A DNA stretch of 64,000 bases. Source: Eggerthella sp. YY7918 (lineage in GTDB: Bacteria; Actinomycetota; Coriobacteriia; Coriobacteriales; Eggerthellaceae). Of the stretch, positions 5,856-60,122 are shown piece by piece. The first letter of the stretch is position 1. Every line of letters begins with the position of its first letter. Location: contig NC_015738.1 in assembly GCF_000270285.1 (NCBI RefSeq), positions 620,001 through 684,000 of the forward strand, read 5' to 3'. The notes beneath the pieces were generated by a model. The model saw only the letters and a program-made list of their open reading frames with translations, was not told the origin of the DNA and did not search any database. A program made the translations under genes and the position numbers.

Positions 5856-7388
5856 TTAATCCTCTTCTGCGAGGTCGATGAGCTCTTGCTGGGAGTGGAT
5901 ATCAAGCTTCTCATAAATATGGCGGATGTGTGTCGCGACGGTGTTTTTCGACAACACAAGAGTGTCTCGGATATAGGGGCGGCTGCGTCCTTGTGCCAAC
6001 AACAGAAATATTTCGGTTTCACGTTTTGACAACCCATACGAACGCGCAATCTTGGTGCGATGTTCAGCTATTGTCTCGGCGGGATTGGTTTCGTGCGCCG
6101 ACGCCTTCATTGTTGCTGTCATGTTTTGTGTTAAAACTTCGCTCATTGGAGCAGCGAGTGTCACATCATAACGGGGTACAAGAAGTGTTAAAGCCGTAAA
6201 AGCACCCACAAGAAAAAGGCAAAAAGCCTCGGGGCTTATGCTTTGCGTAACAAGGCCATCCACATGGCCTTGCAGCATGTATCCCAGAAACAGCCCTGTA
6301 TAAGCTGCGCATTCGCCAAGGCTGACGAAAAAAGTTGAGGTACGACTGGTTTTTTGTGCAAGACGGATGAAATAGAGCACCATAATAATTTCGATGCCGG
6401 TAAATACGACATGAAGCAATATGCGTGAGGTGACTGCCGCTCCAAGATTGTGAAGAGGGGCGCAGATAATAGCAAAAACAAAAGGCACCGAAATCCAGCG
6501 AAAAAGCGCTTCGAGATCAATGCGGCGGGAGAACAAAACAATGGCTGCCGAAAGAATCACAGCAAGTATCATGCCGACAAGGGTTGTGCCCATATCGGTC
6601 GCTGGAGGTATTGGCATGACCAGGGCGACCGGAAGCAAACAGCCGATGCCATATACGGCGAAAATGAGAAGAAACATACGCGCGATATTGATCCCCTTCA
6701 CCTTGCTGCCTGTTGAAGTGCTGCTCAGTTCTTCGGTGGGAACAGAGCCTTGATCAACGGCGCGTTCCGAAAGCAACAGTAAAGCTCCGGAGGCGAGTGG
6801 CAGCAGGGCGATAACGGCAATGGCCACTTCTCCCTGTAGGTTGGGGATGATGAGTGCGCATGCCAAGGTAACAACAAACGAGGCTGGAATGATTGTTTCC
6901 ACGATGCCTGTTTCTGTGCGCGCGAAAAGGCATGTCCAAAGTAGAATAATCACAACGGGTCCAAGGCCTGTGCCGAGGCTTGCAACAACCAGCGCAATAT
7001 AATAGAACAAGCCTGTGACGTGAGCGCAGACAAAGGTAGCCAAGGTGCCGACCGCAGCGAGCGTCGGACCCAAAACATACAGTGATCGAAAATCTGTCAG
7101 TTCATGGGATCGTCCAATCATGATTCCTGCAATGCACGCGAGTGGTGTGACCGCTGCTGAGTAAAACCAGGGGCTCGTGCCCTGCAATGCAGAAGTTCCC
7201 TCGGATAACATGGGGAGGGGGATTTCCCAAAGGCAGGTGCTCCAAGCATACACCAGTCCAAAACCGAGCATGCGTAAGGGGAAGGCGGGTTCTAGTAAAG
7301 CTGCTATACGGTCGATTCCGGTTGGTTTTGCGAGTGTGGGTGCCAATGGTGCTCCTCTCGGGAGAATCGACAATACTTGATCGCGCAT
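5856..7388 (-). CDS. Membrane-embedded LuxR-type regulator, module 1
   Basis: 510 residues. The first ~400 form about 12 hydrophobic segments resembling a transporter fold; the last ~65 are a LuxR/GerE helix-turn-helix (LSKRETEIFLLLAQGRSR, recognition segment SKNTVATHIRHIYEKLDIHS). There is no receiver domain, so signal sensing is probably by the membrane part. Proteins of this design are abundant in Eggerthellaceae beside reductase genes. It is divergent from the flavoprotein at 7588 across a 199-bp interval holding ATCAC/GTGAT palindromes. Expected role: inducer-dependent control of that reductase. Start is ATG 7388; the ribosome site is weak (GGTGA). Confidence 0.88.
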   Translation of the reverse strand: MRDQVLSILPRGAPLAPTLAKPTGIDRIAALLEPAFPLRMLGFGLVYAWSTCLWEIPLPMLSEGTSALQGTSPWFYSAAVTPLACIAGIMIGRSHELTDFRSLYVLGPTLAAVGTLATFVCAHVTGLFYYIALVVASLGTGLGPVVIILLWTCLFARTETGIVETIIPASFVVTLACALIIPNLQGEVAIAVIALLPLASGALLLLSERAVDQGSVPTEELSSTSTGSKVKGINIARMFLLIFAVYGIGCLLPVALVMPIPPATDMGTTLVGMILAVILSAAIVLFSRRIDLEALFRWISVPFVFAIICAPLHNLGAAVTSRILLHVVFTGIEIIMVLYFIRLAQKTSRTSTFFVSLGECAAYTGLFLGYMLQGHVDGLVTQSISPEAFCLFLVGAFTALTLLVPRYDVTLAAPMSEVLTQNMTATMKASAHETNPAETIAEHRTKIARSYGLSKRETEIFLLLAQGRSRPYIRDTLVLSKNTVATHIRHIYEKLDIHSQQELIDLAEED

Positions 7389-7396
7389 CTGTCACC

Positions 7397-7415
7397 ATCA
7401 CCTCATCGCAGTGAT
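7397..7415. promoter_or_regulatory. Operator-like palindrome ATCAC-N9-GTGAT, module 1 proximal to luxR
   Basis: ATCACCTCATCGCAGTGAT is an inverted repeat with 5-bp arms 9 bp from the LuxR start codon. The same core, with CACCTC and GCAGTGAT in the same order, returns at 7443-7465, so the two also form a direct repeat. A related palindrome, TCACCTATTATAGGTGA, lies in module 2. Confidence 0.55.
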
Positions 7416-7421
7416 TTTACC

Positions 7422-7443
7422 GCTGTTTTCCCAGAAAAACAGC
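7422..7443. promoter_or_regulatory. Inverted repeat between the two module 1 operators
   Basis: GCTGTTTT (7422-7429) pairs with AAAACAGC (7436-7443) across six bases. It fills the space between the two ATCAC/GTGAT palindromes. It could be a second kind of binding site or just part of an extended operator; no transcript hairpin role is evident. Confidence 0.35.
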
Positions 7444-7465
7444 ATCACCTCTGTTTGCAGTGATG
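7443..7465. promoter_or_regulatory. Operator-like palindrome CATCAC-N11-GTGATG, module 1 distal to luxR
   Basis: CATCAC and GTGATG form 6-bp arms. With 7397-7415 it gives two related sites whose left arms are 47 bp apart, in the divergent interval between the LuxR gene and the flavoprotein gene. Likely target of the adjacent LuxR protein, by position and similarity to the site at 10845. Confidence 0.5.
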
Positions 7466-7587
7466 TTTTACGGCACGCAATGCTCCTAGAATGCGCCACG
7501 CAGATAAACATAGCCTGTCACAAGAGATAGGTCTTGCCTTCGAGTGGCATTCGCCGCCCTAGGCTTCCAACTCAGGGAGGAGATCGT

Positions 7588-9216
7588 ATGGGTACTTCAA
7601 TGGATCGTCGTGCGTTTCTCGGTTTGAGCGCCATGGGCGCACTTGCCGCGGGGGCGGGCTTGGCTGGTTGTGCGCCACAAAACGGCGCTACGACCGCTCC
7701 GACTGCGGATGCAGAAGGCGCGACAGACCAAACCGCAAAAACAGGCATTCCTCGTAAAGAAGGGTCCGATAAGAAGGAATGCGACGTTGCGATTGTCGGC
7801 GCAGGCGCTGCAGGTCTTATTGCTGCGCTCAAGCTTGCTGAAGCTGGCATGAAGGTTGTCATTGTAGAGAAAGCCCCTTCAGCTGCTATGTCGAACTTCA
7901 GCATGTGTGGCGGTCCTGCTGCATGCGAAACAAAGCTGCAGGAGCAAGAGGGCGAAACGGTTACACTCGACACGCTCTTTACCTACATGTACGATTTCTC
8001 ACGTACGAGTGTAAACGGTGCGCTTCTGCGCAACTGCCTTGCAGGTACAACCTATGCTCTCAATACGATGATTGATCTGGGTGTGCCGATGTCACTGTGG
8101 CCCGACGTATACGGCAATGGTTTTCGTGCACGTCATTTCCTTGAGAGTGAGGGGGAAGAGCGTGTTGCTCCTCTCGTGCAAGCTATTGAAGCCGCCGGTG
8201 GCGAATTCTTGTACAGCACGGGCGGCGAGAAGATCATCATGGAAGATGGTGTAGTGAAGGGCTTGCAAACTGACAAGGGCATCGACGTGATGGCTCCAAA
8301 CGTCGTAGTGTGCACAGGCGGTTTCTTGGGTGGCGAAGAGATGCAGATGCAGGTGTTTAACACACCCGTATTTCCGCTCGGTAATACACTATCTGATGGT
8401 GTCGGCATCAATATGGTGTTAGACGCAGGTGGTGCGCTCGACCGTAATTTTGCCGTGCTGGGCAACGAATGTGGTGCCGTGGCAGCGACTACGAGTGGTA
8501 GCCCTTTCACTGAAGACTGGCACAACGTGAACGAGCACTATGGCTACTGGCTTTTTGGCGGCTTATATACCGATACTGCAGGTGAGCGGTTCATCGACGA
8601 GGGTCGCATTGCCCAGTTTCCGCTTGCCATCGGCGGCGAGGCGTTGCTTCGTGCGGGTAAGGCCTACATTGTTATGGACTCAGACTATTATGAAGGCGTG
8701 AAGGGCGATGGTATCTATGCCTTTCTAGGTGAGCCTGAAAGCTGGGTATCTGGCCTCGAAGCCGACTACTACAAGACGACGCCCGAGAATGCCGAAGAAC
8801 ACTTACAACAGGCCATTGACGAAGGCTGGGCTCTTAAGGCTGATACGATTGCCGAACTGGCAGAAAAATTCTCACTCGACGGACTTGAGGCGACAGTCGA
8901 GCGCTACAACTCTTTCTGCGAAGCTGGTAAAGATACTGACTTCGGAAAGGATCCGGCGTTCCTGAAACCGGTCAAGACTGCTCCCTTTTACATTTTTGAA
9001 TACGTGCCGAGCGGCTGGAGTACGAATGGCGGCGCGAAGGTGGACAGTCATTTGCGCGCTATGGATGCAAACAACAATCCCATTCCTGGTCTGTACGTAG
9101 CTGGCGTTGATCAGGGTAGCGTATACAGCGTGCCTTACTACACCAATCCGGGTGCGTCTGTTGGCTTGGCTCTGGGTTCTGGCTCGTTCGTAGCCGACCA
9201 GATCATCGGTGCGTAA
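7588..9216 (+). CDS. Exported FAD-dependent reductase (fumarate reductase flavoprotein-like), module 1
   Basis: 542 residues. Twin arginines at 7-8 in MDRRAFLG and a lipobox LAGC with Cys 28 suggest Tat export and lipid anchoring outside the membrane. A Rossmann FAD motif (VAIVGAGAAGLIAALKLAEAG) starts near residue 68 and the FAD_binding_2 fold runs to the C-terminus (GLYVAGVDQGSVY). There is no CxxCH haem motif and no FMN-binding domain, so electrons must come from another protein, not encoded nearby. The usual Arg position after RFxNE differs (RFIDEGRIAQ), so the substrate is probably not fumarate. ATG 7588 has GGGAGGAG upstream; a longer ORF from 7534 would hide the Tat signal. Substrate unknown. 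Confidence 0.88.
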   Translation: MGTSMDRRAFLGLSAMGALAAGAGLAGCAPQNGATTAPTADAEGATDQTAKTGIPRKEGSDKKECDVAIVGAGAAGLIAALKLAEAGMKVVIVEKAPSAAMSNFSMCGGPAACETKLQEQEGETVTLDTLFTYMYDFSRTSVNGALLRNCLAGTTYALNTMIDLGVPMSLWPDVYGNGFRARHFLESEGEERVAPLVQAIEAAGGEFLYSTGGEKIIMEDGVVKGLQTDKGIDVMAPNVVVCTGGFLGGEEMQMQVFNTPVFPLGNTLSDGVGINMVLDAGGALDRNFAVLGNECGAVAATTSGSPFTEDWHNVNEHYGYWLFGGLYTDTAGERFIDEGRIAQFPLAIGGEALLRAGKAYIVMDSDYYEGVKGDGIYAFLGEPESWVSGLEADYYKTTPENAEEHLQQAIDEGWALKADTIAELAEKFSLDGLEATVERYNSFCEAGKDTDFGKDPAFLKPVKTAPFYIFEYVPSGWSTNGGAKVDSHLRAMDANNNPIPGLYVAGVDQGSVYSVPYYTNPGASVGLALGSGSFVADQIIGA

Positions 9217-9260
9217 GCAAGCATAAAGTTCCGCTTCCTAAAGATATTCCCTCCCTCCCA

Positions 9261-9294
9261 AATCCCCTTCGCACAGCGTTGCGCGAAGGGGATT
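9261..9294. terminator. Bidirectional terminator
   Basis: AATCCCCTTCGC (9261-9272) pairs perfectly with GCGAAGGGGATT (9283-9294), loop of 10 bases. It lies between the convergent flavoprotein (stop 9216) and LuxR gene (stop 9297) and can serve both. Confidence 0.8.
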
Positions 9295-9296
9295 CT

Positions 9297-10769
9297 CTAT
9301 TGCTCAAACAGGTCAAGTAATTCTTGGCGGGAATGGACGTTGAGCTTCTGGTAGATGTGCTTTACGTGTGTAGCCACCGTATTTTTAGAGAGAATGAGTT
9401 CCTCGCGAATGTACGGCTGCGAACGGCCGCGGGCAAGGTATTCCAAAATTTCGGTTTCACGCGTCGATAGCCCGTGATTGATTGAAAGCTCGCGGCACAA
9501 AAGCCCAATGTGCGAAGTTTCCGTCTCTTCCGGCATTGGAGCTTCTAATATGCCTGCAGGCTTTGTGCTGCGCTGAGGAATAAGTAGCGATGTAAAGGAA
9601 ACCAAGCAGATAAGGCTCAAAACCAGTACAAACACGTTCAGTGTTCCGTTTGCAACGAGGTCGGAAACAGTAACGCCGGTAACGTTTCCCATGAGAACGC
9701 CCAGTTGTATGAACCCTTGGGTGATGCCGATACCTAAGGCCACCGACACACCGCCCTGCTTCGCAAGGCTGATGATATAGAGGTAGACAATAATTTGCAT
9801 GGATGTATCGGCTATGGCAAAAATGGTGGTGGATACAAAATTGGGCAGCACCTCCTGCCAGGGGCAGAGTGCCAGTGCCAGTATCAGTAGGGGAGTGAGC
9901 CAGCGAAACAGCGAGGTGAAATCGATGTGTATGGTATATAAGATGAAGAACAACGCCATTGCAATGCCAAACGATGACCCGATGAAGGTGGCTACGTCAA
10001 ACCCCCAAAGCGTTTGCAGCAAATCCGTTGAGGTGCGCAGTGCGCCCATGCATCCAATGGCAAAATAGGTCGCACATAGCATGATAGATGCGCGCATGAT
10101 CGTGGTTAAGGCGTGCTGGCGGGGACGCTGTGAATGGGGTGATGTGGCGCCAACCGCAGAAGGAGTCGTGCCCTTTTTTACGCCTCGATAAGACAGGAAT
10201 AGAAGCGCTCCGGAAGCCAGTGGAAGCGACGCAACAGCAAGTACCCCGGGGATGCCTTGGATGTAGGGAAATACGAGTGTACAAAGCAGAGTGACCAACG
10301 AAGCGGCGGGTACAACCACTTCGATTTGTTCGATTTCTAGGTGAGACAGTGCATCCGCCCATAAAATGCAAAGCCAGCCCGATCCGATGCCGCTTAAAAT
10401 ACCGCTTATATATTGTAAGACCTCAAAAGATTCCATGAGCGCGGCGACGGCAGAAAGTACCGTTCCTGCTGCAACAAGTATCGGAGCCGCCCAGCGCACT
10501 GCTCGCATGCAGGAAAGATCGCGTGAGCGCCAAGCAAGGCCGCTTGCCAGGAGCACCACCACGACTGTTGCAGCTGAAGCCATCCAGGAGGGGTCGGCAT
10601 TGATGCTGATGCCTTGTCGTTCGGGGAAAAGCGCCGATGTCTCAAACGAACAATAAATCCACGCCCAGACAAAACCTATTCCCAGATAACGCAGCTTGAG
10701 GGTTTTCTCTATAGTAGCGCATGCGGCCGTGAGCCTTGTTAATAAGGTAGGGCGCGCTGTTTGTCCCAC
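9297..10769 (-). CDS. Membrane-embedded LuxR-type regulator, module 2
   Basis: 490 residues with the same plan as the regulator at 5856: about 12 membrane segments, then LuxR HTH (LSTRETEILEYLARGRSQ, recognition segment SKNTVATHVKHIYQKLNVHS) close to the C-terminus. The recognition segment is almost the same as in module 1, matching the related TCACCT-type palindromes of both modules. GTG start at 10769 follows AAGGAGACCCC. It is divergent from the flavoprotein at 10966. The ligand is unknown; a role as one-component inducer sensor is inferred from family and context. Confidence 0.88.
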   Translation of the reverse strand: MGQTARPTLLTRLTAACATIEKTLKLRYLGIGFVWAWIYCSFETSALFPERQGISINADPSWMASAATVVVVLLASGLAWRSRDLSCMRAVRWAAPILVAAGTVLSAVAALMESFEVLQYISGILSGIGSGWLCILWADALSHLEIEQIEVVVPAASLVTLLCTLVFPYIQGIPGVLAVASLPLASGALLFLSYRGVKKGTTPSAVGATSPHSQRPRQHALTTIMRASIMLCATYFAIGCMGALRTSTDLLQTLWGFDVATFIGSSFGIAMALFFILYTIHIDFTSLFRWLTPLLILALALCPWQEVLPNFVSTTIFAIADTSMQIIVYLYIISLAKQGGVSVALGIGITQGFIQLGVLMGNVTGVTVSDLVANGTLNVFVLVLSLICLVSFTSLLIPQRSTKPAGILEAPMPEETETSHIGLLCRELSINHGLSTRETEILEYLARGRSQPYIREELILSKNTVATHVKHIYQKLNVHSRQELLDLFEQ

Positions 10770-10844
10770 GGGGTCTCCTTCAGTGGCTGTTCAGCCGGTA
10801 CGTATCAGCTTCAAATATCGTATGGTCGCAGCGGTTTTGTAACC

Positions 10845-10861
10845 TCACCTATTATAGGTGA
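10845..10861. promoter_or_regulatory. Perfect operator palindrome, module 2
   Basis: TCACCTATTATAGGTGA is an exact 8-1-8 palindrome in the 196-bp interval between the divergent LuxR gene (start 10769) and flavoprotein (start 10966). Its TCACCT half-site resembles the ATCACCTC half-sites of module 1. Best read as the binding site of the adjacent regulator. Confidence 0.65.
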
Positions 10862-10965
10862 AAACCATTTGGCCCCGCTTTCAGGCGATGTTCTTGTCGT
10901 TTGCGTTGACCATACTTAGTCCTGTCTTCGGACGTGTTTGCAAGGAACTATGAAGGAGGGACTGT

Positions 10966-12711
10966 ATGACAAAGGAAAACAAAATGCAGATCAGCAGGCG
11001 TTCGTTTCTTACAGGAGCGGCTGCAACAGGGATGATCGCAGCAGCTGGCGCACTGGCAGGATGCGCGCCTCAGGCAAAGAGCGAGGCACCTAAGGGCGAT
11101 TCCGCTTCTGAGGCTGGAGAGGGGTCGGCGCAGGGAGCTGACTGGCTGGGCGAGGCACCGCAGATCAGCGATAGCGACTGCGTGGAAACAGTGGACTGTG
11201 AGATTCTTGTTGTAGGTGCGGGCACGTCGGGTTACTTCGCTGCGGCTTCGGCTGCTGAGAGCGGTGCTAAAACACTGCTTATCGAAAAGTCTACGGCGGG
11301 TAACTCGGTGCGCTCTTCGGCGCTTGGTGCGGTCAACTCACGTTTGCAGCAAGAACAGGGTGAGAAGGCTCACATCGACCCTATGGCCATTGTGAACGAC
11401 ATGGATCGTTATGCGCTTGGGCAAATTAATTCTAGTCTGGTGCGCCAGTGGGCACTTAACTCTGGCGAAACGCTTGACTGGTACACTGATCTCATGGCCG
11501 AAAACGGTATTGAGGTGCAGCTTGAATGGAATATGCCTGAAGGCACGTTCTATACTGAATGGCCTACCGGTCATGGCACCAATGGAGAGTATCCCAGCCG
11601 CGAACAGGACGTTGCGAAAGCTATCGATGCATATATCGCATCGTTCGACGGCTGCGAAGTGCGTTTCGAGTGCCCCATGAAGAGTCTTATCTCGCAGGAT
11701 GGTCGTGTGGTGGGCGCTTATGCTGAAAGTTCGGATGGTGTAATTCGCATCAATGCAAGCAAGGGCGTCATCGTGGCGACGGGTGGTTATGCGTACAACA
11801 AGGATATGTACCCGGCGTTGCAACCGACGCGCTTTAGCTGTCTGGGAACCTTTGATGCGTTTCCCACCTGTACGGGCGACGGTATCAAGGCCCTCATGTG
11901 GTTGGGTGCGAAGATGGATGACGTGCATACCTCCCTCACCTTCAATCGCTGTCTGCTTACGGCCGAACAAGAGGTAGGAGACCCATACAATGTTGGTGCT
12001 GATGCATACGGTTATCATTTTTATGCTTCTCAGCCTTTCCTACGTGTGGACAGCTCCGGTCGTCGTTTCCACAACGAGAGCGCTCCCTACGATTTCGTGA
12101 TGAGCGCTTCTGCCAAGCGTCCTGAGGGCGACCGCCATTGGCACCAGGTATGGGATAGCAACTGGAAGGAATGCGTCGAGCGTTTCCATACCGTGGGCTG
12201 TTCTACCATCTGTTTCCGCGAAGGTGCCGATCACGACGCTTATCCGGGTCAGCTAGACGACTGGATTGAACCCGAGATGGAAGGCTTTGTGGAGGCTGGC
12301 TACCTTGTTAAGGCCGATACGCTTGAAGAGTTGGCCGACAAGCTGGGTTTCGATGCGGAAGCGAAGGAGACTTTTCTGGCCACATGCGAGCGTCAAAACG
12401 AGAACTTCGACGCACAGATGGACCCCGACTTCGGCAAGGAATCGTTCCGCTTGAGCGAACTGCGTACGCCTCCGTTCTACGCGAGCGTGAAGTCGTGCGG
12501 TCTTACACTATGCACGCTTGACGGCATACAGGTGAATGACGATCTGCAGCCCTTTGGCGAAGACGGTGCGCCCATTGAAGGCGTGTACGTTATCGGGAAT
12601 GATCAGGGCAGCTTCTATGCTGGCAGCTATCCGAACCTCGCAGCGGGTCTGAACGCTGGTCGTTGCGCCACGCTTGGTCGTATGGTCGGTAAAAAGCTCG
12701 CCGAAAAGTAA
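10966..12711 (+). CDS. Exported FAD-dependent reductase (FAD_binding_2), module 2
   Basis: 581 residues. Twin arginines at 11-12 (ISRRSFLTG) and lipobox LAGC with Cys 33 indicate Tat export and a lipid anchor. The FAD motif VDCEILVVGAGTSGYFAAASA begins near residue 77. At the place where fumarate reductases have NExxxRD, this protein reads HNESAPYDF, that is, Tyr instead of the catalytic Arg. No haem motif or FMN domain is present. ATG 10966 follows AAGGAGGG; a second ATG six codons later is possible. Regulated probably by the divergent LuxR protein through 10845-10861. A respiratory reductase for an unknown, possibly non-carboxylate, acceptor is the likeliest role. Confidence 0.88.
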   Translation: MTKENKMQISRRSFLTGAAATGMIAAAGALAGCAPQAKSEAPKGDSASEAGEGSAQGADWLGEAPQISDSDCVETVDCEILVVGAGTSGYFAAASAAESGAKTLLIEKSTAGNSVRSSALGAVNSRLQQEQGEKAHIDPMAIVNDMDRYALGQINSSLVRQWALNSGETLDWYTDLMAENGIEVQLEWNMPEGTFYTEWPTGHGTNGEYPSREQDVAKAIDAYIASFDGCEVRFECPMKSLISQDGRVVGAYAESSDGVIRINASKGVIVATGGYAYNKDMYPALQPTRFSCLGTFDAFPTCTGDGIKALMWLGAKMDDVHTSLTFNRCLLTAEQEVGDPYNVGADAYGYHFYASQPFLRVDSSGRRFHNESAPYDFVMSASAKRPEGDRHWHQVWDSNWKECVERFHTVGCSTICFREGADHDAYPGQLDDWIEPEMEGFVEAGYLVKADTLEELADKLGFDAEAKETFLATCERQNENFDAQMDPDFGKESFRLSELRTPPFYASVKSCGLTLCTLDGIQVNDDLQPFGEDGAPIEGVYVIGNDQGSFYAGSYPNLAAGLNAGRCATLGRMVGKKLAEK

Positions 12712-12731
12712 TTTCTTTCGATGCCCCTCCC

Positions 12732-12759: not shown

Positions 12760-12869
12760 TGTTTCGCTTGCAAACCAAACGCGACAAAGCGAGAAAAACA
12801 TGTCACCATTGGTTGGTGGAGTAGCAAAGGTGGGGAGCGTACTATACATGAGCAAGGAGTATGAAAAAT

Positions 12870-13292: not shown

Positions 13293-13326
13293 TCCCGTCT
13301 GACCGGCGGGCGGAGGGGAGCCCGTA

Positions 13327-14586: not shown

Positions 14587-14594
14587 TTCCTTAT

Positions 14595-16265
14595 TTATTC
14601 ATGGATGAGTTTGCCTTGCGCAAGTGCTTCGCCAACGAGGTTGCCAAAGGTCAAGGCGCGACCATGACTGATGCCAGGGCAGGTGACAGGATAGGAGAAT
14701 CCGAAGAAATCCCCCTGAACGTTTCCTACGGCAAATAGGCCGGGAATAGGCTGATCGTCGTCTGTGCAAACCTGCGAGTTCTTGTCAACGTGCAAGCCAA
14801 AGGGCACGGTGAGCGTAACGGCGGGCACGGGCTGTGCGTAAAACGGTGGCGTTTCGACACTTGCAAGGAAGCGGGCAGGTACGCCGAAGTCGACATCGTT
14901 TTCGGTAGCACACATCTCGTTATACCGCTTAACCGTGGCGAGGAATGTTTCGCGCGGCACCCCGATGGCATCTGCCAGCTCTTCAAGGGTGTCAGCTGAC
15001 CACATTTCACCATTTGCGATGCCGGCTTCCAGACGTTCAGCAGCACCAGCTAATAAACTGTCTGCCGTCTCGGGTTCCTGCGCGCGTGTCTTTTCTTCGT
15101 ATGCGCCATCAAAGATGGTAAAGGCGACATTGCCTGGTTGGTTCATGCGCGCATTCGTTACATAGGGCTCATAAGGCACCTCGCAGCTGTAGCGTTCGCC
15201 AAGACTATTTACGGCAAGCCATGACATGGAAAGCGCCGAGAGCGGCAATGTTGCTGCGATGGGATGCACCATAGGTGCTGCTGCAGATTTTGAGTGTGCT
15301 GCACCAGCCCACATTCCCATAAGAATGCCTTCACCCAGATTGCCATTTGGGGGGAAATACTGACATACGTCTGCACGTAGAGCGATAGGAGCCCAGCAAG
15401 CAAGCATCTCGTCGTTTCCGGAAATGTCGCCAGTTGCGAGAATGACGCCTTTTGCAGCGTTAAACTGAATATGTTTCCCATCTTCGGCTGTGGCCACAAC
15501 GCCGCTTACCGTATCGCCCTCTTTTACAAGCTGCTCTGCATGGGTGTTAAAGAATGTTTCGGCTCCGTTTGCAACGGCGGCTTCAAGCAGAGTTTCCACA
15601 AGGTGAGATTCGATGAAGGTAAAGTTCTCTGTGTCGATAACAACACCTTCATCAGCTCGACCAAACGTGATACCAGTTCGGAACTCTTTGAACTGGTCGG
15701 GGAGGGTATTCCAGTCGGTCTTTGAGGTTTCAGAAATGGCAAGGATTGAGGGGATGTCTCGTGCGGCGCACAGTTCAGAGAAATGATCAAAAACTGCGCC
15801 TGAGCGAGAAGCCCATGTGTAGACCAGATCGCGGTTGACGCTACCTTGAGAGAAGTTGAACAAGATTCGGGTGGCTTCTTCGGGGCTGATTTCGATTCCT
15901 GCATCACGATGCACCTGAGTGTTGATGGCTCCATTGTCGGCACCGTGCGCTGTAAAACTAGCGGCTTGTTCGATAATGGCCACACGGGCTCCTTGTGCGG
16001 ATGCGGCTTCAGCGGCAGCGCAGCCCGAAGGGCCCGCACCAACGATAACGATGTCATAGTCTTTGGTTTCGGCGATATCAGAGATTGGCTCTGGTGCAAC
16101 TTCCCAAGAATGCTGTCCAGATGACAAGCCTTCGCTTGCTCCTTGGGGCGCTGCTTGATTTGCGTCGTTGCCAGCGGGGCTACATCCGGCAAGACCGACG
16201 GTCCCACCTGCAACAAGAGCACTTGCAGCCATCCCTTTTAAAAAGTCCCTACGATTCATTTCCAT
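14595..16265 (-). CDS. Exported FAD-dependent reductase (FAD_binding_2), module 3
   Basis: 556 residues. MEMNRRDFLKG has the twin arginines at 5-6 and the lipobox LAGC puts Cys at 28. The FAD motif YDIVIVGAGPSGCAAAEAAS starts near residue 72, and the C-terminus has the usual GLFAVGNVQGDFFGFSYPV. Where fumarate reductases have NExxxRD it reads CEVPYEPYV, without the Arg. ATG 16265 is chosen because AAGGAGG precedes it; the open frame from 16286 includes that ribosome site. The gene lies downstream of, and in the same direction as, the broken LuxR gene 16439-17876; two C/G-rich palindromes at 16343-16392 precede it. Substrate unknown. Confidence 0.87.
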   Translation of the reverse strand: MEMNRRDFLKGMAASALVAGGTVGLAGCSPAGNDANQAAPQGASEGLSSGQHSWEVAPEPISDIAETKDYDIVIVGAGPSGCAAAEAASAQGARVAIIEQAASFTAHGADNGAINTQVHRDAGIEISPEEATRILFNFSQGSVNRDLVYTWASRSGAVFDHFSELCAARDIPSILAISETSKTDWNTLPDQFKEFRTGITFGRADEGVVIDTENFTFIESHLVETLLEAAVANGAETFFNTHAEQLVKEGDTVSGVVATAEDGKHIQFNAAKGVILATGDISGNDEMLACWAPIALRADVCQYFPPNGNLGEGILMGMWAGAAHSKSAAAPMVHPIAATLPLSALSMSWLAVNSLGERYSCEVPYEPYVTNARMNQPGNVAFTIFDGAYEEKTRAQEPETADSLLAGAAERLEAGIANGEMWSADTLEELADAIGVPRETFLATVKRYNEMCATENDVDFGVPARFLASVETPPFYAQPVPAVTLTVPFGLHVDKNSQVCTDDDQPIPGLFAVGNVQGDFFGFSYPVTCPGISHGRALTFGNLVGEALAQGKLIHE

Positions 16266-16342
16266 TGTCTTTCCCTCCTTGATCAAACATTCGGACGTAT
16301 TGTCCTTGCCTGACCATAGGGCGTGTTGGCGGCGCTAAACAA

Positions 16343-16358
16343 TCCCTGATCCGGGGGA
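16343..16358. promoter_or_regulatory. C/G operator-like element, module 3 proximal
   Basis: TCCCTGATCCGGGGGA, followed by ATTTC, is about 80 bp upstream of the flavoprotein start. It aligns well with CCTGAGCGGGGTATT in module 4, at a similar distance from its flavoprotein. Confidence 0.5.
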
Positions 16359-16376: not shown

Positions 16377-16392
16377 TCCCCCACTTGGGGGA
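16377..16392. promoter_or_regulatory. C/G palindrome, module 3 distal
   Basis: TCCCCCACTTGGGGGA has 6-bp arms TCCCCC/GGGGGA around ACTT. It is the second of two C/G-rich elements between the LuxR stop (16439) and the flavoprotein start (16265), and corresponds to ACCCACCGTGGGGT in module 4. Confidence 0.6.
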
Positions 16393-16438: not shown

Positions 16439-17876
16439 TCAGAGCGAAAAAGTGTGCTCAATCTCATGGAGCAAGAGCTTTACAAGTTCGTCGCGAGAGT
16501 GAATGTCGAGCTTCTGATAGAGGTGCTTTATATGGGTTTTTACGGTCTCCTGGGAGACGGTCAGGGCTTCCGCTATAGATGATCGGCTGTTTCCTTCCGC
16601 AATGAGTAAAGCGATTTCCGTTTCGCGAGGTGTGAGATCGTAGTGTGAGCTTAAGGTATCGAGCGCAAGCTGCAGATCGGATGGAGCAAGTTGAGACAGA
16701 TTGCTTCGTTTTGCTCGGTTCATGTTTGCAAAGAAAATCAATGCGACAACAAAAAGCGCATAGACCACACCAAGAGAAATGTAAAGCGAAAGGGAATCGG
16801 TCGATCCGAATAATATGACCGCACCAAAATATCCCAAACTACCCAAAGCCTGTCCTGCTTGGTTTGCCAGAAGGCCCACCGAAAAACCCCGAGAACCGCT
16901 CGCATTTTTATGTGCGAAGTATGTGCAGAAGAACCATACAAGCGCGACGAAACAAAGGAAGGCGGCCGTATGGAGTACAAATGCGATAACAGGAACCTCT
17001 CGTGCTAAAAGAGCGAGCGCTATGAAAGCACCCGCTATAGCGATAATAACTATTTGCAAAAGAAGCGTTGGTTGTAATTTGCCTATAGAGGAAGAGAGCG
17101 CCAGCAAAACAAGGCCTGTCGCCAAGACGGCCAAAGTGAACACATGATCACCGACCATTGCGGTCGAGGATGCATGGCTTGTGAAGCGCATAATACCTGC
17201 TGTCACGCCAATTACGGCAACAAGAAAGCAAGAAGGAGCTTGGCGACAAGGTGTCTTTTGTGGTTTGGCGCGTCGGGATTGATTCAGGGGTTTTCCGCGT
17301 TTCGAGAAGTGCGCGGCGATAGAAAAAAGCAACAGCCAAAGGAAGAAGAGTCGTCACGATCCATACAGCGATAGGCACAAAAATGACGGTTACTATGAGG
17401 CTCAAGAGAGATCCGCCAACAAATCCTGCAGCCATGCCCATAAAAGTTGTTTGAGGCTGCATGGTGCAGAAAAGTTCGCCAAGACATGCCATAAAGAAGC
17501 CGGTGCCTATTCCGAGGAGTGCGATACCGATCAGATAGGAGATATCCCATGCAAAACCAACGTATGCAAGGCGAGTGGTGATAAGCGCGATTCCGATCGC
17601 GGTTGTGATGCATGACATACGTGAAAAGCGAAGATAATTCAGGTTGCGAAGTTTGCTTATGAAGCCCGAGAATACAGCGAGGGCAAACGCGTTGCATGAA
17701 ACGGCAATGATCCATATAAGATCGCTGCTTAAATCGAGATTGGAAGTGGAATTTTCGGGTATGAATGAACTGCTCCACAATACGATGTAATGAAATGCCC
17801 AAAAGCACGTCAGGCATGCAAGAAGGTTTTTGTACGTTTGAAAGTTTTGTTTGAAGATGTTGATAGTCTGAGTCAA
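16439..17876 (-). pseudogene. Membrane-embedded LuxR-type regulator, module 3, split by a frameshift
   Basis: Two overlapping frames together make one regulator of about 478 residues. The N-terminal frame (17876 down to about 17256) gives six or so membrane segments and ends ETRKTPESIPTRQTTKD; the other frame picks up at KTPCRQAPSCFLVAVIG and ends in a LuxR HTH (LTPRETEIALLIAEGNSR, recognition SQETVKTHIKHLYQKLDIHS). Removing one A from the four-base run (TTTT on the plus strand, 17256-17259) restores a single frame; the true site could be up to about 75 bases away. Start is TTG 17876. The gene is either disrupted, a sequencing error in a homopolymer, or frameshifted in translation. It precedes reductase 14595-16265. 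Confidence 0.8.
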
Positions 17877-54629: not shown

Positions 54630-54647
54630 AATTTCATTCACCTTGCC

Positions 54648-56426
54648 TTACCCAAGCACCATCTGCAGGTGCTCGGCGACGGGACCAAGCGCGAGCGCGG
54701 GAAACATCGTGAGCGCGCCTACCAGCAGCACGATGACCAGCAGCAAAAATGCGAACATGGCATTGCTTGTAGACAGGGTGCCTGCGCTTGTGGCTACCTT
54801 TGTACGCTTCGCCAGGCTGCCGGCCAGAACGAGTGCAGCCGCCATCGGCATGAAGCGGTTCACCAGCATTTCCAGTCCCAGTACCACGTTAATGAGGGGC
54901 GTGTTTGCGTCGAGGCCCGCGAACGCAGAGCCGTTGTTGCCGCCCGCCGAGATGGCTGCGTATAGCACCTCAGAGAATCCGTGCGCACCCGTATTGGTGA
55001 GGGCATTCGCAGTGGCGGGGTCGAGGCATAGCACGGCCGTACCCACCAGAATGACGAGCGGCGTCGTGATGCACAGGATTACCGCCATGCGCATCTCCCT
55101 GGGGCCGATTTTCTTGCCGAGGTATTCCGGCGTGCGCCCCACCATGAGGCCGGCAATAAACACCGTGAGCAGGACAAATCCGATGAGCGAATACAAACCG
55201 CAGCCCACGCCGCCAAACACCACTTCGCCAAGCGCCATCAGAATCATGGGCACCATGCCGCCGAGCGGGGTGAGGCTGTCATGCATAGCGTTCACCGAGC
55301 CGTTCGACGCTGCCGTAGTGAACGCCGCCCACAGGGCTGAATCGGTCACGCCAAAGCGCGTTTCTTTGCCTTCCATGTTGCCGCCGGACTGGCCGGTCAG
55401 GCCCAGGTACACCGCGCCGTCTTGCGCAAGCTGCGGCGTGCCAGTCTGCTCGAAGTATGCGATGGCCACGAGGCCCACCAGCAGCAGGACGAACAGCGCT
55501 GCGAAGAGGGTACGTCCGTGCCGCCGGTCGTTAACAAAGCGACCGAAGCTGAATACGAGCGCCACGGGAATGAGGAGCAGCGACAGGCATTGGATGAGGT
55601 TGGTGAGCGGCGTAGGGTTCTCAAGCGGGCTTGCGGAGTTTACGCCGTTGTAGCCGCCACCGTTCGTGCCGAGCTGCTTAATGGCCACCTGGCTGGCCTG
55701 TGGGCCGAGCGGGATGATTTCCTGTGTGATGGTTTGCACGGCTGCGGGATCCTCGGCATCCACGATGGCGCCGTCGGCCGTGACGCCTACCGGTTCAAGC
55801 AGCTGCACCGTTTCGTACGGAGCGAGGTTCTGCGGCGAACCCTGTGCAACATCGACGATGGCAACCACCAGCGACAGCGGCAACAGCACAAACAACACCG
55901 CGCGCGTCGCGTCCTTCCAGAAGTTACCAAGGCCCGGCGTGTTTTCGGCCACGATACCGCGAAACAGTGCAAACAGCACCGCCATGCCCACCGCCGGCGT
56001 CACAAAGTTTTGCACCGTCAGGCCAAGAGCCTGCGAGAAGTAGCTGAGTGCGGCCTCGCCGCTGTACGCCTGCCAGTTCGTGTTCGTGACGAAGCTGATG
56101 GCGGTGTTGAGTGCGAGGTCCCAGCTGAGTCCAGGAAGCCCCTCCGGGTTGCCCGGCAGCACGCCCTGCAACATGAGAATAGCGAACAGTCCTGCGAGCG
56201 AAACCGCCGAAAATGCGAGTGCGCTCACGAGATACGTTTTCCATCCCATGTTTTCGTATTTGTCCACACGAATGCTCCGATAAATGAAATTCTCTACCGG
56301 AACGAGCACACGTGAGAGCACGGCAACCCGCTCTCCCGCCATCACGCGGTTGATATACCCCGACAGTGGAATGGCCAATGCCACGAGCAGCGCCAGGTAG
56401 ATGCCGTATTCCAGCACTTCGCCCAT
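54648..56426 (-). CDS. kdpA: Potassium-transporting ATPase subunit KdpA
   Basis: 592 residues with about ten membrane segments. TNTNWQAYSGEAALSYFSQA near residue 130 and IKQLGTNGGGYNGVNSASPL near 240 hold two of the pore-loop filter segments; AISAGGNNGSAFAGLDANTP near 490 holds another. KdpA is the ion-selective channel subunit. ATG 56426 overlaps the kdpF stop by one base (TGATG); a GTG one codon earlier is also in frame. Confidence 0.94.
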   Translation of the reverse strand: MGEVLEYGIYLALLVALAIPLSGYINRVMAGERVAVLSRVLVPVENFIYRSIRVDKYENMGWKTYLVSALAFSAVSLAGLFAILMLQGVLPGNPEGLPGLSWDLALNTAISFVTNTNWQAYSGEAALSYFSQALGLTVQNFVTPAVGMAVLFALFRGIVAENTPGLGNFWKDATRAVLFVLLPLSLVVAIVDVAQGSPQNLAPYETVQLLEPVGVTADGAIVDAEDPAAVQTITQEIIPLGPQASQVAIKQLGTNGGGYNGVNSASPLENPTPLTNLIQCLSLLLIPVALVFSFGRFVNDRRHGRTLFAALFVLLLVGLVAIAYFEQTGTPQLAQDGAVYLGLTGQSGGNMEGKETRFGVTDSALWAAFTTAASNGSVNAMHDSLTPLGGMVPMILMALGEVVFGGVGCGLYSLIGFVLLTVFIAGLMVGRTPEYLGKKIGPREMRMAVILCITTPLVILVGTAVLCLDPATANALTNTGAHGFSEVLYAAISAGGNNGSAFAGLDANTPLINVVLGLEMLVNRFMPMAAALVLAGSLAKRTKVATSAGTLSTSNAMFAFLLLVIVLLVGALTMFPALALGPVAEHLQMVLG

Positions 56427-56518
56427 CACCGCCCATCACCGCCTCGAAGCAACACTGTGAACAGATACAGCGCAACGAGCACGCTCAACCCGCCCACTAT
56501 TGCGGTTACACTCTCCAT
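56426..56518 (-). CDS. kdpF: Small membrane subunit KdpF
   Basis: A 30-residue product, MESVTAIVGGLSVLVALYLF then TVLLRGGDGR, which is one membrane helix with a short charged tail, as known for KdpF. ATG 56518 follows AAGGAAGG at a good distance. Its stop overlaps the kdpA start (TGATG), which fits the usual kdpFABC order. KdpF is a lipid-like stabiliser of the complex. The end of the gene includes the tandem 10-mer GCCCATCACC on the plus strand. Confidence 0.85.
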   Translation of the reverse strand: MESVTAIVGGLSVLVALYLFTVLLRGGDGR

Positions 56519-56666
56519 CGTCCTTCCTTTCCTTGGTCTAAGTGGTACAGCCCAAGAATAGGAAGGCTCGCGTAAAGGCGGTGTTAAGGGGATATGCTGG
56601 ACATTAAGATATGATTAAGAACTCGTGAGTCACTCGTTTCAAATGCCCAAAAGGCGTTCTAAAAAA

Positions 56667-56692
56667 ACGCACCCGCCATTCGACGGGTGCGT
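56667..56692 (-). terminator. Rho-independent terminator of module 4 reductase
   Basis: ACGCACCCG (56667-56675) pairs with CGGGTGCGT (56684-56692). Read on the minus strand, the hairpin is followed by seven T, a classical terminator about 57 bases after the flavoprotein stop at 56749. The rest of 56519-56748 contains the kdp promoter area, without clear boxes. Confidence 0.88.
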
Positions 56693-56748
56693 CAGAGAAT
56701 CCAAGGCCCAGGAGGGGGAGGGAGAGGCCTTGGGGTTAGGAGGAGGCT

Positions 56749-58473
56749 TTAGGCTTCCAGGCCTTCGATGTGCAGGACGGCATGACGACCGAAGGTCATC
56801 TGACGGCCCAGGCAGTTACCTACCAGATATACGGGGTAGTTACCCGAGTAGTAGCTGCCCGAGCACGTGCCCACGGCATACAGACCTTCGATGGGCTGCG
56901 CGTTCTCGTCGAGCACCTGAGTGTCTGCATTGATGTTCAGACCGTCAAGGGTGGTCAAAAGCGAGCCGCCAAACCAGGTGCCATAGAAGGGCGCGGTGCG
57001 AATTGCGGAAAGGCGATAGGGCTCCTTGCCCATGTCTTCGTCCACGCCGGCATCGTACAGCTCGTTGTAGCGCTCGATGCTTGCCAAGAAGGCAGCTTTA
57101 GCGTCGCCCTCGTATCCCAGCTTGTCGGCCAGTTCGTCAAGAGTGTCGGCCTTCATCATAATGCCCTTGCTGATGTACTTCTCGTCGTACGCTTCATCGA
57201 CGGTCTTGTCCTTGAGCTGCATCTTCCAGGTCATGGCCGAGCAACCCTGCGTCTGGAAACGTTGCACGTCTTCGGGTGCATTCGCATCCATGATCTGACA
57301 CCATACGCCGCCCGGATGATTGCTGGCTGCATGGCAGATGCTGTCGTAGTTGCAGCTTTCGTTGGTGATGCGCACGCCGTTGCGGTCAAGCTTCAAAAAC
57401 GGCTGGCTACCAAGGTTGAACTGTCCCGAAGCGGGGAACTGGGCATCTTCACCCTCGCCGACATACCCGGCATCCACGCCGGGCTCAACGGAACCGCGGT
57501 CAAAGATCATCGCAGCAGGGGTCTTGTCCATAGCGGCGCCCGCCCACAGCGCAGCTTTGATGCCCATACCGGTGTTGTTCTGGTTGTAGTTCAGGTTGGT
57601 TACGCAGGCGGGAATAATGGGGTTGAGCGCCTTGACCATGTCGGGGTTCGCCGGATAGCCGCCCGTGGCCAGAATGACGCCCTTCTTGGCGTTGATCTGC
57701 ACATACCCATCTTCCGTCTGGAAGAAGGCGCCGGTGACCGGGCCGTTTTCCTCGCGAATGAGCTTTGCGAGATCGTGGCTGAACAGCACCTCGTGGCCCG
57801 CTTTGCCGATAATGTCGATCATCACTTTGATGTGGTCAATATTCTTGCCGTCGGCACCCTTGAAGGTGTGGCACTCGGGCGGAATGTAGTAAAGTGTGCC
57901 GCCTGCGCGCCCATCGCCGCCGTTTTCCACGGTAACGGTCACGTCGCACGCACCCAAGTTTTCCTCATAAATGCCCTGCAGCCACTCGGTCATCTTTCCG
58001 CTCTCGCGCACCCAAGTCCGCGCCACGTTGGAGTCGTTCTTGAACGAGGCGTAGCGGTTGAGCTCATTGAGGATGCGACCTTCGTCGATGGTCTGGCCGG
58101 TCTGAGCCGTGAACTTCGAGTTGACCGCACCGACGTCGAAGTGCGAAGCGGAAGGCTCCGAACCCTTGTCGGCCACGATGAAGTCGAGACCCAAATCGGA
58201 AGCCGTCAGCGCCGCCGTCATGCCGGACATACCCGCGCCTACGATAAGGATGTCGCACTCTTTCGTTTCTTTGATATCGCCCTCAGCGATTTCCGGTGCA
58301 GAGCCAAGCCAATCCTGCGTGCTTGTTGTCGAGGTGTCGCTCGCGGCTGTATCCTTCTTCTCGGCTGTTGCCTGCGGAGCGCAGCCTGCAAGCCCCATCG
58401 TGGCGAGCGCGCCCGTTGCGGCGGCACCCGTCAGAAAGCTGCGGCGCGAAATCCCCTTGCTTGTTGTAGCCAT
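56749..58473 (-). CDS. Exported FAD-dependent reductase (FAD_binding_2), module 4
   Basis: 574 residues. Twin arginines at 10-11 (ISRRSFLTGAAATG) and lipobox LAGC with Cys 31. The FAD motif KECDILIVGAGMSGMTAALT begins near residue 71; the C-terminus has GLYAVGTCSGSYYSGNYPVY. Where fumarate reductases have NExxxRD it reads TNESCNYDSI, with Tyr for Arg as in module 2. No haem or FMN domain. ATG 58473 follows GGGAGGAAC. Divergent from the LuxR gene at 58680 across an interval with two C/G-rich palindromes. Exported reductase of an unknown acceptor. Confidence 0.88.
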   Translation of the reverse strand: MATTSKGISRRSFLTGAAATGALATMGLAGCAPQATAEKKDTAASDTSTTSTQDWLGSAPEIAEGDIKETKECDILIVGAGMSGMTAALTASDLGLDFIVADKGSEPSASHFDVGAVNSKFTAQTGQTIDEGRILNELNRYASFKNDSNVARTWVRESGKMTEWLQGIYEENLGACDVTVTVENGGDGRAGGTLYYIPPECHTFKGADGKNIDHIKVMIDIIGKAGHEVLFSHDLAKLIREENGPVTGAFFQTEDGYVQINAKKGVILATGGYPANPDMVKALNPIIPACVTNLNYNQNNTGMGIKAALWAGAAMDKTPAAMIFDRGSVEPGVDAGYVGEGEDAQFPASGQFNLGSQPFLKLDRNGVRITNESCNYDSICHAASNHPGGVWCQIMDANAPEDVQRFQTQGCSAMTWKMQLKDKTVDEAYDEKYISKGIMMKADTLDELADKLGYEGDAKAAFLASIERYNELYDAGVDEDMGKEPYRLSAIRTAPFYGTWFGGSLLTTLDGLNINADTQVLDENAQPIEGLYAVGTCSGSYYSGNYPVYLVGNCLGRQMTFGRHAVLHIEGLEA

Positions 58474-58536
58474 ATGTTCCTCCCTTGATCGTGGAAACTA
58501 CGCGTTTCAGCATAGGCTGCGCCTCGTACCCGAGCG

Positions 58537-58552
58537 CCCCCCTGAGCGGGGT
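58537..58552. promoter_or_regulatory. C/G operator-like element, module 4 proximal
   Basis: CCCCCCTGAGCGGGGT, followed by ATT, is about 65 bp upstream of the flavoprotein start. It aligns with TCCCTGATCCGGGGGA of module 3 in sequence, orientation and distance from the gene. Confidence 0.55.
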
Positions 58553-58584
58553 ATTCTTGCGGTCATCCCATGGAAAAATCCATC

Positions 58585-58598
58585 ACCCACCGTGGGGT
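58585..58598. promoter_or_regulatory. C/G palindrome, module 4 distal
   Basis: ACCCACCGTGGGGT, followed by ATTTC, is an imperfect palindrome about 110 bp before the flavoprotein start, on the LuxR side. It is the partner of the module 3 palindrome TCCCCCACTTGGGGGA. Confidence 0.55.
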
Positions 58599-58679
58599 AT
58601 TTCCCGATCAGAGGCATGTTGCGACTACGGAAGAGCTCCGTCTCTTGGTAGAATGATTGCGGGGAGAGGGAGGAAAGCA

Positions 58680-60122
58680 ATGCTGCGTCAATGGTGGGAC
58701 GACGGGGGCCGACTCGTGCTGCGGTGTGCATTGGCCATGTTCTTTATTTCGCTCACGGGGACGGTGCTTAACGCCGAGGTGTATTCGAGCATAGCGCCGT
58801 ATTTTGGCATAGGTCGTGAAATATCTACGCTGTTTACTGCTCTGGTGTTTATCACCATTGGCTTTATAGCGCATAAGAAACCAAGCGTACTTGATGTTCG
58901 CTTGATCAGCATAGTCGTTATAGCCATTCTTTTAATGGCGGGTTTTTTGCTTACGCTTGCACTTGAGCTGAAGAACCCGCTCTTCGTGCTGGTAGGACTG
59001 TTTTGCCGGGCCATTGGAAGCGCATGGGGAATTACGGTGTTCTCTGTCGCACTGGCCGGTTTGCCCTCGGCGCGCTCGGTGCTCGCGGCGGTCGGTGTGG
59101 GCATGATCGCTTCCGATATTGTGTGGCACCTCATGCCAACGCATATGCCGCTTATGGCCGCTTCCTTCCTTGTTATGGTGTGCGCAGCCCTTCCTATTGT
59201 GCTTATGTATCGCCCGAGCGAGGCGGGGTTTCACACCATTCGGCAAAGTGCGACCGCGTCAAGCCTTGGCGTACCAGGCGTTGCCCAGTTTGCGTCGTTG
59301 CGAAGCCTTGTGCTGTGCATGTTGCTGTTCGGCATTGCGGCAGGTTATGCGCTTACCCTCAACGAGCAGGGCGATGCTCCTGTCGAAACGATCGTCGAGA
59401 CCATTTTGTTTGCGGGCATTGTTGTGGTGTTGGTTGCAGGAGATGCGCATACCAAGCGCGAGGGGCGCGAGGATCTGCTGTTTTCTTTGGCGGTGTTGCT
59501 TATTATCGCCGGTTTTCTTATTGCGCCGCTTTCGTTTGAGCCGGATGCCGCTGTGGCAAATGTGCTCTTGCGGTTGGGGCGCTCGTGCTTCGATTTGATT
59601 ATTTGGCTGGTGCTTACCGCCCTTGGACGACGTAATATTTTTCTGCTGCTTCCGGTGCTTGGGTTGGCGCGCTGCATGAACAGTATCGGCGTCGACATTG
59701 GTGCGACGGCGGGGCGCGTTACCGACATGCTTCTTGTACAGGCGCCGGATTCTGCAGGTACCGTGACCGCTCTCTTGGTGTTCGCCTTTATCGCGTTTCT
59801 CTGGTTAGGCTTTCGCGATTTTCGGTTTTCACGCGTTATCAACGACGTGGAAATTGTCAACGAACCTGAGATTTCGCGCATTGGCGACTATCTGGAGCAT
59901 CGCTGTCATACGCTCGGCCAAGAACGGGGGCTGACCGAGCGGGAAGTGGAGATCCTTTCTCTGTTGGCGCAAGGGCGCGACGGCAAATTTATCGCCGAAC
60001 GCTATGTGCTGTCGTACAACACCGTGAAAACGCACATCAAGCATATTTACCAGAAGCTGGATGTCCATTCACGTCAGGAACTCATCGACACCGTAAGCGT
60101 AAGCAAAGGCGAGGAGGGCTAA
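58680..60122 (+). CDS. Membrane-embedded LuxR-type regulator, module 4
   Basis: 480 residues. About 12 membrane segments, then a LuxR HTH (LTEREVEILSLLAQGRDGKF, recognition SYNTVKTHIKHIYQKLDVHS). The TVKTH segment matches module 3 and differs from TVATH in modules 1 and 2. ATG 58680 begins MLRQWWDDGG with GGAGG upstream; the open frame from 58485 covers the operator interval and is not credible. Divergent from the flavoprotein at 58473, which it probably controls. Confidence 0.88.
   Translation: MLRQWWDDGGRLVLRCALAMFFISLTGTVLNAEVYSSIAPYFGIGREISTLFTALVFITIGFIAHKKPSVLDVRLISIVVIAILLMAGFLLTLALELKNPLFVLVGLFCRAIGSAWGITVFSVALAGLPSARSVLAAVGVGMIASDIVWHLMPTHMPLMAASFLVMVCAALPIVLMYRPSEAGFHTIRQSATASSLGVPGVAQFASLRSLVLCMLLFGIAAGYALTLNEQGDAPVETIVETILFAGIVVVLVAGDAHTKREGREDLLFSLAVLLIIAGFLIAPLSFEPDAAVANVLLRLGRSCFDLIIWLVLTALGRRNIFLLLPVLGLARCMNSIGVDIGATAGRVTDMLLVQAPDSAGTVTALLVFAFIAFLWLGFRDFRFSRVINDVEIVNEPEISRIGDYLEHRCHTLGQERGLTEREVEILSLLAQGRDGKFIAERYVLSYNTVKTHIKHIYQKLDVHSRQELIDTVSVSKGEEG

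Follow-up and report, generated by a model that had tools for sequence, protein, structure and literature searches.

We analysed a window, the whole 64,000-nucleotide stretch of Eggerthella sp. YY7918 at positions 620,001 to 684,000 of NC_015738.1, that holds four modules, each consisting of a membrane LuxR-type regulator gene (luxR1 to luxR4) and an adjoining flavoprotein gene. Many regulators of this kind in the Eggerthellaceae, the LuxR proteins with 10-12 transmembrane segments (10-12-TM LuxRs), probably use a common 17-bp operator dyad with the half-site T1 C2 A3 C4 C5 (C/T)6, whose bases 3-6 track the recognition helix of the regulator. The frame of this dyad, its spacing, its position in the gap before luxR, its symmetry, its conservation and its covariation with the helix were computed. 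The sites of the window appear to be variants of one operator, TCACC(C/T)...GGTGA, with N7 between five-base arms; the retained sites have this geometry except the second site of module 1, in which the arms are nine bases apart.

The four modules are members of the 10-12-TM LuxR family of Coriobacteriia as characterized in the main text of Dong et al. (2022, PMC9734109). As in that family, the LuxR-type helix-turn-helix (HTH) domain PF00196 (GerE) lies at the C-terminus of all four regulators (in LuxR3, on the C-terminal piece of a broken gene), behind a long hydrophobic N-terminal part. Crude hydropathy windows gave 10 segments in LuxR1, 9 in LuxR2, 5+5 over two frames in LuxR3 and 12 in LuxR4. 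An FAD_binding_2 (PF00890) protein adjoins each of the four, which resembles the flavin- or Mo-enzyme neighbours of the described family, and the dozens of copies per genome are matched by 74 GerE matches in the 3.12-Mb, single-contig genome. The family is not little described, as the initial annotation had it, given its description in 2022 (PMC9734109). Translation confirmed the recognition helices that the same annotation had read: SKNTVATH in LuxR1 and LuxR2, and S(Q/Y)(E/N)TVKTH in the other two modules, namely SQETVKTH in LuxR3 and SYNTVKTH in LuxR4. Among the 73 of 74 GerE places that were translated (the partial match 241473 being outside the set), TVATH is confined to modules 1 and 2.

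The upstream regions of a wider protein set carry the evidence for the frame. This set comprised 247 distinct LuxRs of at least 330 aa with an aligned HTH, taken from this genome, parts of G089 and G052 and other fetched loci. G089 and G052 have 274 GerE matches; 124 of those listed were planned in 88 stretches, of which 80 were covered and 8, all of G052, were out. The 19 loci found by pattern included cut LuxR frames (L144, L151, L158) and non-LuxR genes (L148, L149, L150, L152, L154, L155, L156, L157). Grouping at 38% identity gave 138 groups, and exclusion of the LuxR1, LuxR2 and LuxR4 groups (15, 23 and 27 members) left 180 regions in 133 groups, which still include some proteins found with LuxR1, LuxR2 or LuxR4 as the query (e.g. 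L086, L135). With at most one mismatch, TCACC-Nk-GGTGA occurred in 16 of the 133 groups at k=7 and in 0-7 groups at other k (0 to 14). The control of reversed polarity occurred in 1 group at k=7 and in 0-5 at other k. Over 138 genomes, WTCACCN7GGTGAW was found 70 times versus 30 for its reversed control (hand sum). The consensus of the symmetric matrix built from the 180 regions is T C A C C C, in which T1 and C2 carry the most weight. When groups were held out in five-fold cross-validation, 52 of the 180 held-out regions, belonging to 40 of the 133 groups, scored above the 95% level of shuffles (9 expected), and 24 scored above the 99% level (1.8 expected); shuffles in the matrix, covariation and scan tests preserve base content only. 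Most held-out sites (35/52) lie 50-150 bp before the luxR start.

The frame was recovered in later sets. The pattern KNTV followed by a residue other than A yielded 39 loci, 5 of them without a complete reading frame; the 34 scored loci include a non-LuxR (L273) and some relatives of training regulators. Nine of the 34 had a site at p<=0.05 (1.7 expected), and k=7 was again the top spacing (5 versus 0-1). Relatives were also found in named genomes, including Rubneribacter badeniensis, Gordonibacter, Raoultibacter, Adlercreutzia and Slackia; Rubneribacter belongs to the Eggerthellaceae, to which we take the other four to belong as well. In these genomes a LuxR was counted as new if its last 120 residues were unlike earlier ones (L300 and L302 are nearly one locus), and 8 of 13 new LuxRs had a site at p<=0.01, one of the eight (L294) being a LuxR2 relative. 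Another of the eight, L309, comes from a metagenome-assembled genome (MAG) labelled Bifidobacteriaceae and has a LuxR of the 10-12-TM kind with TCACCTGAAACGGGTGA upstream, which reflects either a wider spread of the 17-bp frame or a mislabelled bin. In 572 kb of the own genome, chosen around LuxR genes, 14 of 66 LuxR upstream regions scored at p<=0.01 as compared with 5 of 232 control upstream regions (Fisher 1e-6), and 23 of 66 scored at p<=0.05. Eight of the ten best matrix hits in the 572 kb are LuxR upstream regions; the other two are intergenic and less than 2 kb from the GerE matches 2474017 and 2500188. Cross-validation is the cleaner test, because the LuxR regions of the own genome are partly in the training set of the matrix.

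The bases of the half-site covary with the recognition helix. Sites were first chosen by a score blind to bases 3-7, by which 37 of 180 regions exceeded the 95% shuffle level and 76 sites in 31 groups were obtained. Of 512 column-base associations, the three strongest lay in the recognition helix and linked base 4 to columns 42 and 34 and base 7 to column 34; the fifth linked base 4 to column 35 (z 3.8), and column 38, the x of TVxTH, was associated with base 6 (z 3.1). The final set comprised 278 regions in 148 groups, with 91 confident sites in 41 groups. Across groups, with one representative per group and helix, similarity in the contact columns 34, 35, 38, 39 and 42 correlated with half-site similarity (Mantel r 0.51, p 0.001). 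Base counts were made with one representative per group, each half-site counting as one half. Base 6 is C in 14.5 of 20 groups with K in TVxTH and in 2.5 of 12 groups with A/S/N/Q/E/W (permutation p 0.0003), and base 4 is C in 22.5 of 27 groups with N in xNTV, as compared with 2.5 of 12 with S/G/A (p 0.00005) and 1.5 of 2 with E. The xNTV residue (N versus S/G/A) has a larger effect, on base 4, than the TVxTH residue. By eye, base 4 was C in 16 of 16 halves of the eight confident named-genome loci, all of which have N, and the six K loci among them had C at base 6 in 8 of their 12 halves. By our own alignment, the contact residues of RcsB and DosR presumably fall on columns 35, 38 and 39. Base contacts are made by K180 and S184 of RcsB (accessible text of PMC5829831) and by Lys179, Lys182 and Asn183 of DosR (accessible text of PMC4082495). 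It is quite possible, if tentative, that a compact code operates on the one 17-bp frame, in which the residue before TV reads base 4 and the residue after TV reads base 6, such that dozens of membrane LuxR paralogues per genome of gut Eggerthellaceae are kept apart and regulator-target pairs can be predicted from sequence alone. A readable protein-operator relation in which the TVxTH residue takes part, as the initial annotation supposed, is borne out by the association of K with C at base 6.

Candidate operators of the window were examined in orthologs, which were obtained by searches of the 138 family genomes. Upstream regions were compared and a selection was aligned, with L093 and L134 outside the alignment. 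Palindrome strength was scored against 15 shuffles per region. The candidate operator of module 2 (TCACCTATTATAGGTGA, 10845..10861) is a perfect 17-bp dyad that scores above all 15 shuffles and ranks 4 in the 572-kb scan. A TTCACCTAnAATAGGTGA-type site was present in all 12 aligned rows (this genome and 11 orthologs), with TAACC in L066 and TCACCTGAAAGAGGTGA in one row. A weaker second element (10872..10888, minus strand TCGCC-N7-GGGGC) coincides with a block conserved in most of the 12 rows. In module 1, a candidate operator near luxR1 (7398..7414, TCACC-N7-AGTGA; minus strand TCACyG-N4-GAGGTGA in the alignment) ranks 8 in the matrix scan, and a second candidate, TCACC-N9-AGTGA, lies closer to the partner gene at 7445..7463. 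Both were present in all 9 aligned rows, those of this genome and of 8 orthologs; they are imperfect dyads in this genome, where shuffle ranking put another dyad first and the N9 dyad third, and full dyads in several of the orthologs. The N9 arms of the second site are conserved between window positions 7445-7463 and the upstream regions of L083, L094-L097, L099, L100 and L104, and one regulator may accept both spacings, N7 and N9, in module 1. In module 4, the candidate operator TCACC-CACCGTG-GGGTA (58583..58599) was at chance level as a bare palindrome (p 0.73), and its block T(C/A)(A/C)CC-N7-GGG(T/C)A was conserved in all 5 rows, those of this genome and of 4 orthologs; the first C/G site (58536..58552, GCCCC-N7-GGGGT) was loosely kept. 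Palindrome strength alone is a poor guide to sites, because the module 2 site stands out, those of modules 3 and 4 do not, and another dyad comes first in module 1. With at most one mismatch, TCACC-N7-GGTGA occurs three times in the window, in module 1, in module 2 and once more at 12803.

In a dyad search per group, the LuxR1 and LuxR2 groups reached 11.5/12 and 11.58/12, as compared with at most 10.17 in controls; the result was unclear for the pooled LuxR4 group (10.25 versus control 10.17) and for most two-member groups. The refuting condition set in the initial annotation, no enrichment of the predicted palindromes in the matching group, had a mixed outcome: enrichment was strong in the matching group, and the core was common to many other groups as well. 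Judged by conservation in orthologs, the footprints argue for the two sites of module 1, for that of module 2 and for 58583, and more weakly for 58536. Of the palindromes first proposed as operators, these were retained together with the one of module 3 at 16342, and the one at 16377 was not.

Module 3 has a broken regulator gene. The ortholog of luxR3 in L138 is a single frame of 478 aa, and the gene here is split in two overlapping frames, so that it is a young pseudogene unless the split results from a sequencing error. The palindrome at 16377 (TCCCCCACTTGGGGGA) had a p of 0.13 by itself and lies just past luxR3. In the ortholog L139 this position is occupied by a long GC stem with TTCTTTTT behind it, and in L138 by a perfect hairpin without a T-run. 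We rejected 16377 as an operator on the grounds of this textbook terminator in L139 and its terminator-like form here; the hairpin (16377..16392, minus strand TCCCCCAAGTGGGGGA) is probably a terminator. The conserved operator-like element of module 3 would instead be 16342..16358 (minus strand TCCCC-N7-GGGAT), which is at the same place as TCCCC-N7-GGGCT in L138 and L139, where both orthologs have a second block, TTCCCCCGCTATGGGGCT. The site is less symmetric here than in the orthologs.

We weighed several other explanations of these sites. The initial annotation proposed that the operators fall into two separate classes, TCACCT with TVATH and CCCC/GGGG with TVKTH, one residue deciding between them. 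It agrees with this that 34 of the 36 regions whose regulator has A as the x of TVxTH (mostly LuxR1 or LuxR2 relatives) carry TCACC-N7-GGTGA within one mismatch, 28 of them exactly, that LuxR4 relatives have C/G-rich sites and that C at base 6 accompanies K. However, the TCACC half-site is kept in 12 of 20 K groups and a CCCC run is present in only 6 of 20, TCACC-N7-GGTGA within one mismatch precedes 26 of 113 K regulators, and base 4 is governed by another helix residue. Two separate classes are quite improbable on this evidence; the A-to-K switch matters, through C at base 6, but it shifts one base and not the class of site. That the association of helix and base reflects common ancestry of both, with no residue reading a base, is unlikely. 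Similarity in the rest of the HTH also tracks site similarity (r 0.27), but the contact columns retained a partial correlation of 0.48 once the rest of the HTH was accounted for, and the rest one of 0.17 once the contacts were. Moreover, two Slackia MAG loci, L301 with SRNTIKTH (TCACCCAGGCTAGGTGA) and L305 with SRNTIRTH (TCACCTAGGCTAGGTGA), have different letters at base 6 in one of the halves (TCACCC versus TCACCT).

Two further explanations dispense with the cognate regulator. A reading of most of the palindromes as terminators, hairpins or chance dyads of short gaps is highly improbable. A terminator is the probable identity of 16377, and there is a general excess of dyads without a preferred spacing, whereas the enrichment described above is specific in sequence, polarity and spacing, was recovered in held-out and later sets, is conserved in orthologs and is rare in control genes (5/232 at p<=0.01). 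The recurrence of one core, with TC at its outer ends, across groups would also fit a single shared global regulator that binds the 17-bp dyad in place of each cognate LuxR. This is barely credible, given that the variable bases track the helix of the adjoining LuxR, and its contact columns more than the rest of the HTH. In addition, the main text of PMC9734109 reports for E. lenta that induction of three family promoters was lost on deletion of the local LuxR and that there was no cross-regulation between HcdR and CadR.

Several observations weigh against a common 17-bp operator read by the helix. A confident site was found in only 41 of the 148 groups of the final set, and 107 had none. Sequence-blind dyad counts gave a broad excess with no clear 17-bp peak, and the derivation of one dyad length from such counts was rejected on that ground. 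Control upstream regions of the own genome were themselves mildly enriched (22/232 at p<=0.05, 11.6 expected), two of the 36 regions before regulators with A in TVxTH (L147, L201) had no site within one mismatch, and seven FISKNTVKTHL(N/R)HIY regions gave one weak site. Regarding the helix, columns outside it were also among the first 25 associations (e.g. column 51 with base 3, z 3.8), T stands at base 6 in 3.5 of 20 K groups, R groups are mixed (C in 5.5 of 9), and SKNTVRTHMRN has TCATCC, counter to the rule that N goes with C at base 4. A is represented by 3 groups only in the final set, so that the A-to-K contrast comes mainly from a pool in which A is joined by other small or polar residues. 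Finally, related helices and related sites share ancestry, which the partial Mantel test reduces and does not remove. The common operator remains our preferred reading.

If the dyad is the operator, it would act from the gap before luxR, which luxR usually shares with the gene of its flavoprotein or Mo-enzyme partner. A ligand-activated, membrane-tethered regulator would bind the 17-mer through two HTH domains when the ligand is present, and would then bring RNA polymerase to luxR as well as to the promoter of the partner. Binding, activation, dimer geometry and insulation are predictions from sequence. Autoregulation of DadR was suggested by a rise of DadR with dopamine (main text of PMC9734109). 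Modules 1, 2 and 4 would each have two such sites. Paralogues would stay apart through bases 3-6, where N in xNTV would go with C4 and S/G/A with T or A, and K in TVxTH with C at base 6 and A/S/N with T or other bases. A -10-like hexamer was most frequent 28-29 bp to either side of the site centre (z 2.4 and 2.1), which weakly suggests an operator near -41. The lux box of quorum-sensing LuxR lies near -42.

The HTH of these regulators resembles those of known systems. At its C-terminus only, LuxR2 matches the response regulator 4wt0, which we take to be LiaR (E 2e-7), and NarL 1je8 (E 3.5e-6). The NarL 7-2-7 site is 16 bp long with TACYYMT-like halves, whereas the window sites are 17 bp with TCACC-like halves. 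Quorum-sensing LuxR likewise combines a GerE domain with a dyad operator, but the site sequence differs. At E 0.001, Pfam found in LuxR1-4 neither a receiver domain, unlike in NarL response regulators, nor an autoinducer-binding domain, unlike in quorum-sensing LuxR. No further Pfam family was above the cut-off in LuxR1-4, a PF13796 match in the N-terminal piece of LuxR3 being sub-threshold. Within the 10-12-TM family, DadR, HcdR and CadR respond to specific substrates by activating enzyme genes that adjoin them or lie nearby (Dong et al. 2022, main text of PMC9734109). What is described there is substrate-specific activation, and what is added here is a predicted operator frame and a helix-to-base relation. 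The main text of PMC9734109 does not use the terms palindrome, inverted repeat, consensus, footprint or EMSA (electrophoretic mobility shift assay), and "operator" denotes CuO and LacO in the passages covered. We found no operator for the 10-12-TM family in the literature searched, including the accessible text of PMC12771579 and PMC11887054; subscription papers were mostly outside the search, and absence is unproven.

The genes of the modules are arranged as follows. LuxR1 (5856..7388, minus strand, start at 7346 or 7388; PF00196 E 2.5e-13) has relatives of at most 62% identity in other genomes and is followed by its FAD_binding_2 partner at 7588..9216 on the plus strand (PF00890 E 4.6e-27). 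LuxR2 (9297..10769, minus strand; PF00196 E 1.1e-15), whose TVATH alanine is A465 and whose relatives reach at most 65%, is paired with the FAD_binding_2 protein at 10966..12711, plus strand (E 1.6e-37). In module 3, the partner, an FAD_binding_2 protein with a twin-arginine translocation (Tat) signal, lies at 14595..16265 on the minus strand (E 1.5e-38), and luxR3 at 16439..17876, minus strand, as two frames that overlap, 17148-17876 and 16439-17332, with PF00196 (E 4.2e-16) on the C-terminal piece. Module 4 comprises a further FAD_binding_2 protein with a Tat signal (56749..58473, minus strand; E 7.6e-41) and LuxR4 (58680..60122, plus strand; PF00196 E 2.3e-17), which has relatives in other genomes.

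Further observations were made outside the window. Of the called genes at the GerE matches of this genome, 59 of 67 encode at least 380 aa. Six of 73 matches have no called gene, and short frames or missing genes include 431828, 636475, 803794, 2366785 and 2500188, which may point to turnover of the membrane LuxR family in the genome. A perfect 22-bp palindrome, TAAACAGCATATATGCTGTTTA, precedes a SENTVKTH LuxR (HTH at G000:C1:484482) and falls outside the 17-bp frame. Strong dyads of opposite polarity (GGGTG..CACCC) occur in some K-type LuxR gaps (HTHs at G000:C1:365761 and 2986297) and may be halves of two adjacent operators. An inspection of G065 by eye, meant for validation on an experimentally induced promoter, showed no arrangement like that of the dadh locus, with a LuxR gene beside a distinct LysR gene. 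At G065:C1:2357845-2359038 (minus strand), LysR-type HTH and GerE matches lie 1.0 kb apart on one strand, each in a 438-aa open frame, possibly as a single regulator with two HTH domains.

According to the main text of PMC9734109, family members of E. lenta control catechol-metabolising enzymes, others adjoin enzymes for digoxin and plant lignans, and more than 98% of the family's clusters were not readily assignable to a function in 2022. A predicted operator would enable regulon assignment, reporter design and inducer screens for such orphan enzymes. Dozens of paralogues per genome with readable helices provide a natural experiment on the insulation of paralogous regulators, and sensor-target pairs might become readable from sequence, with the variable operator letters tracking the residues of the sensor.

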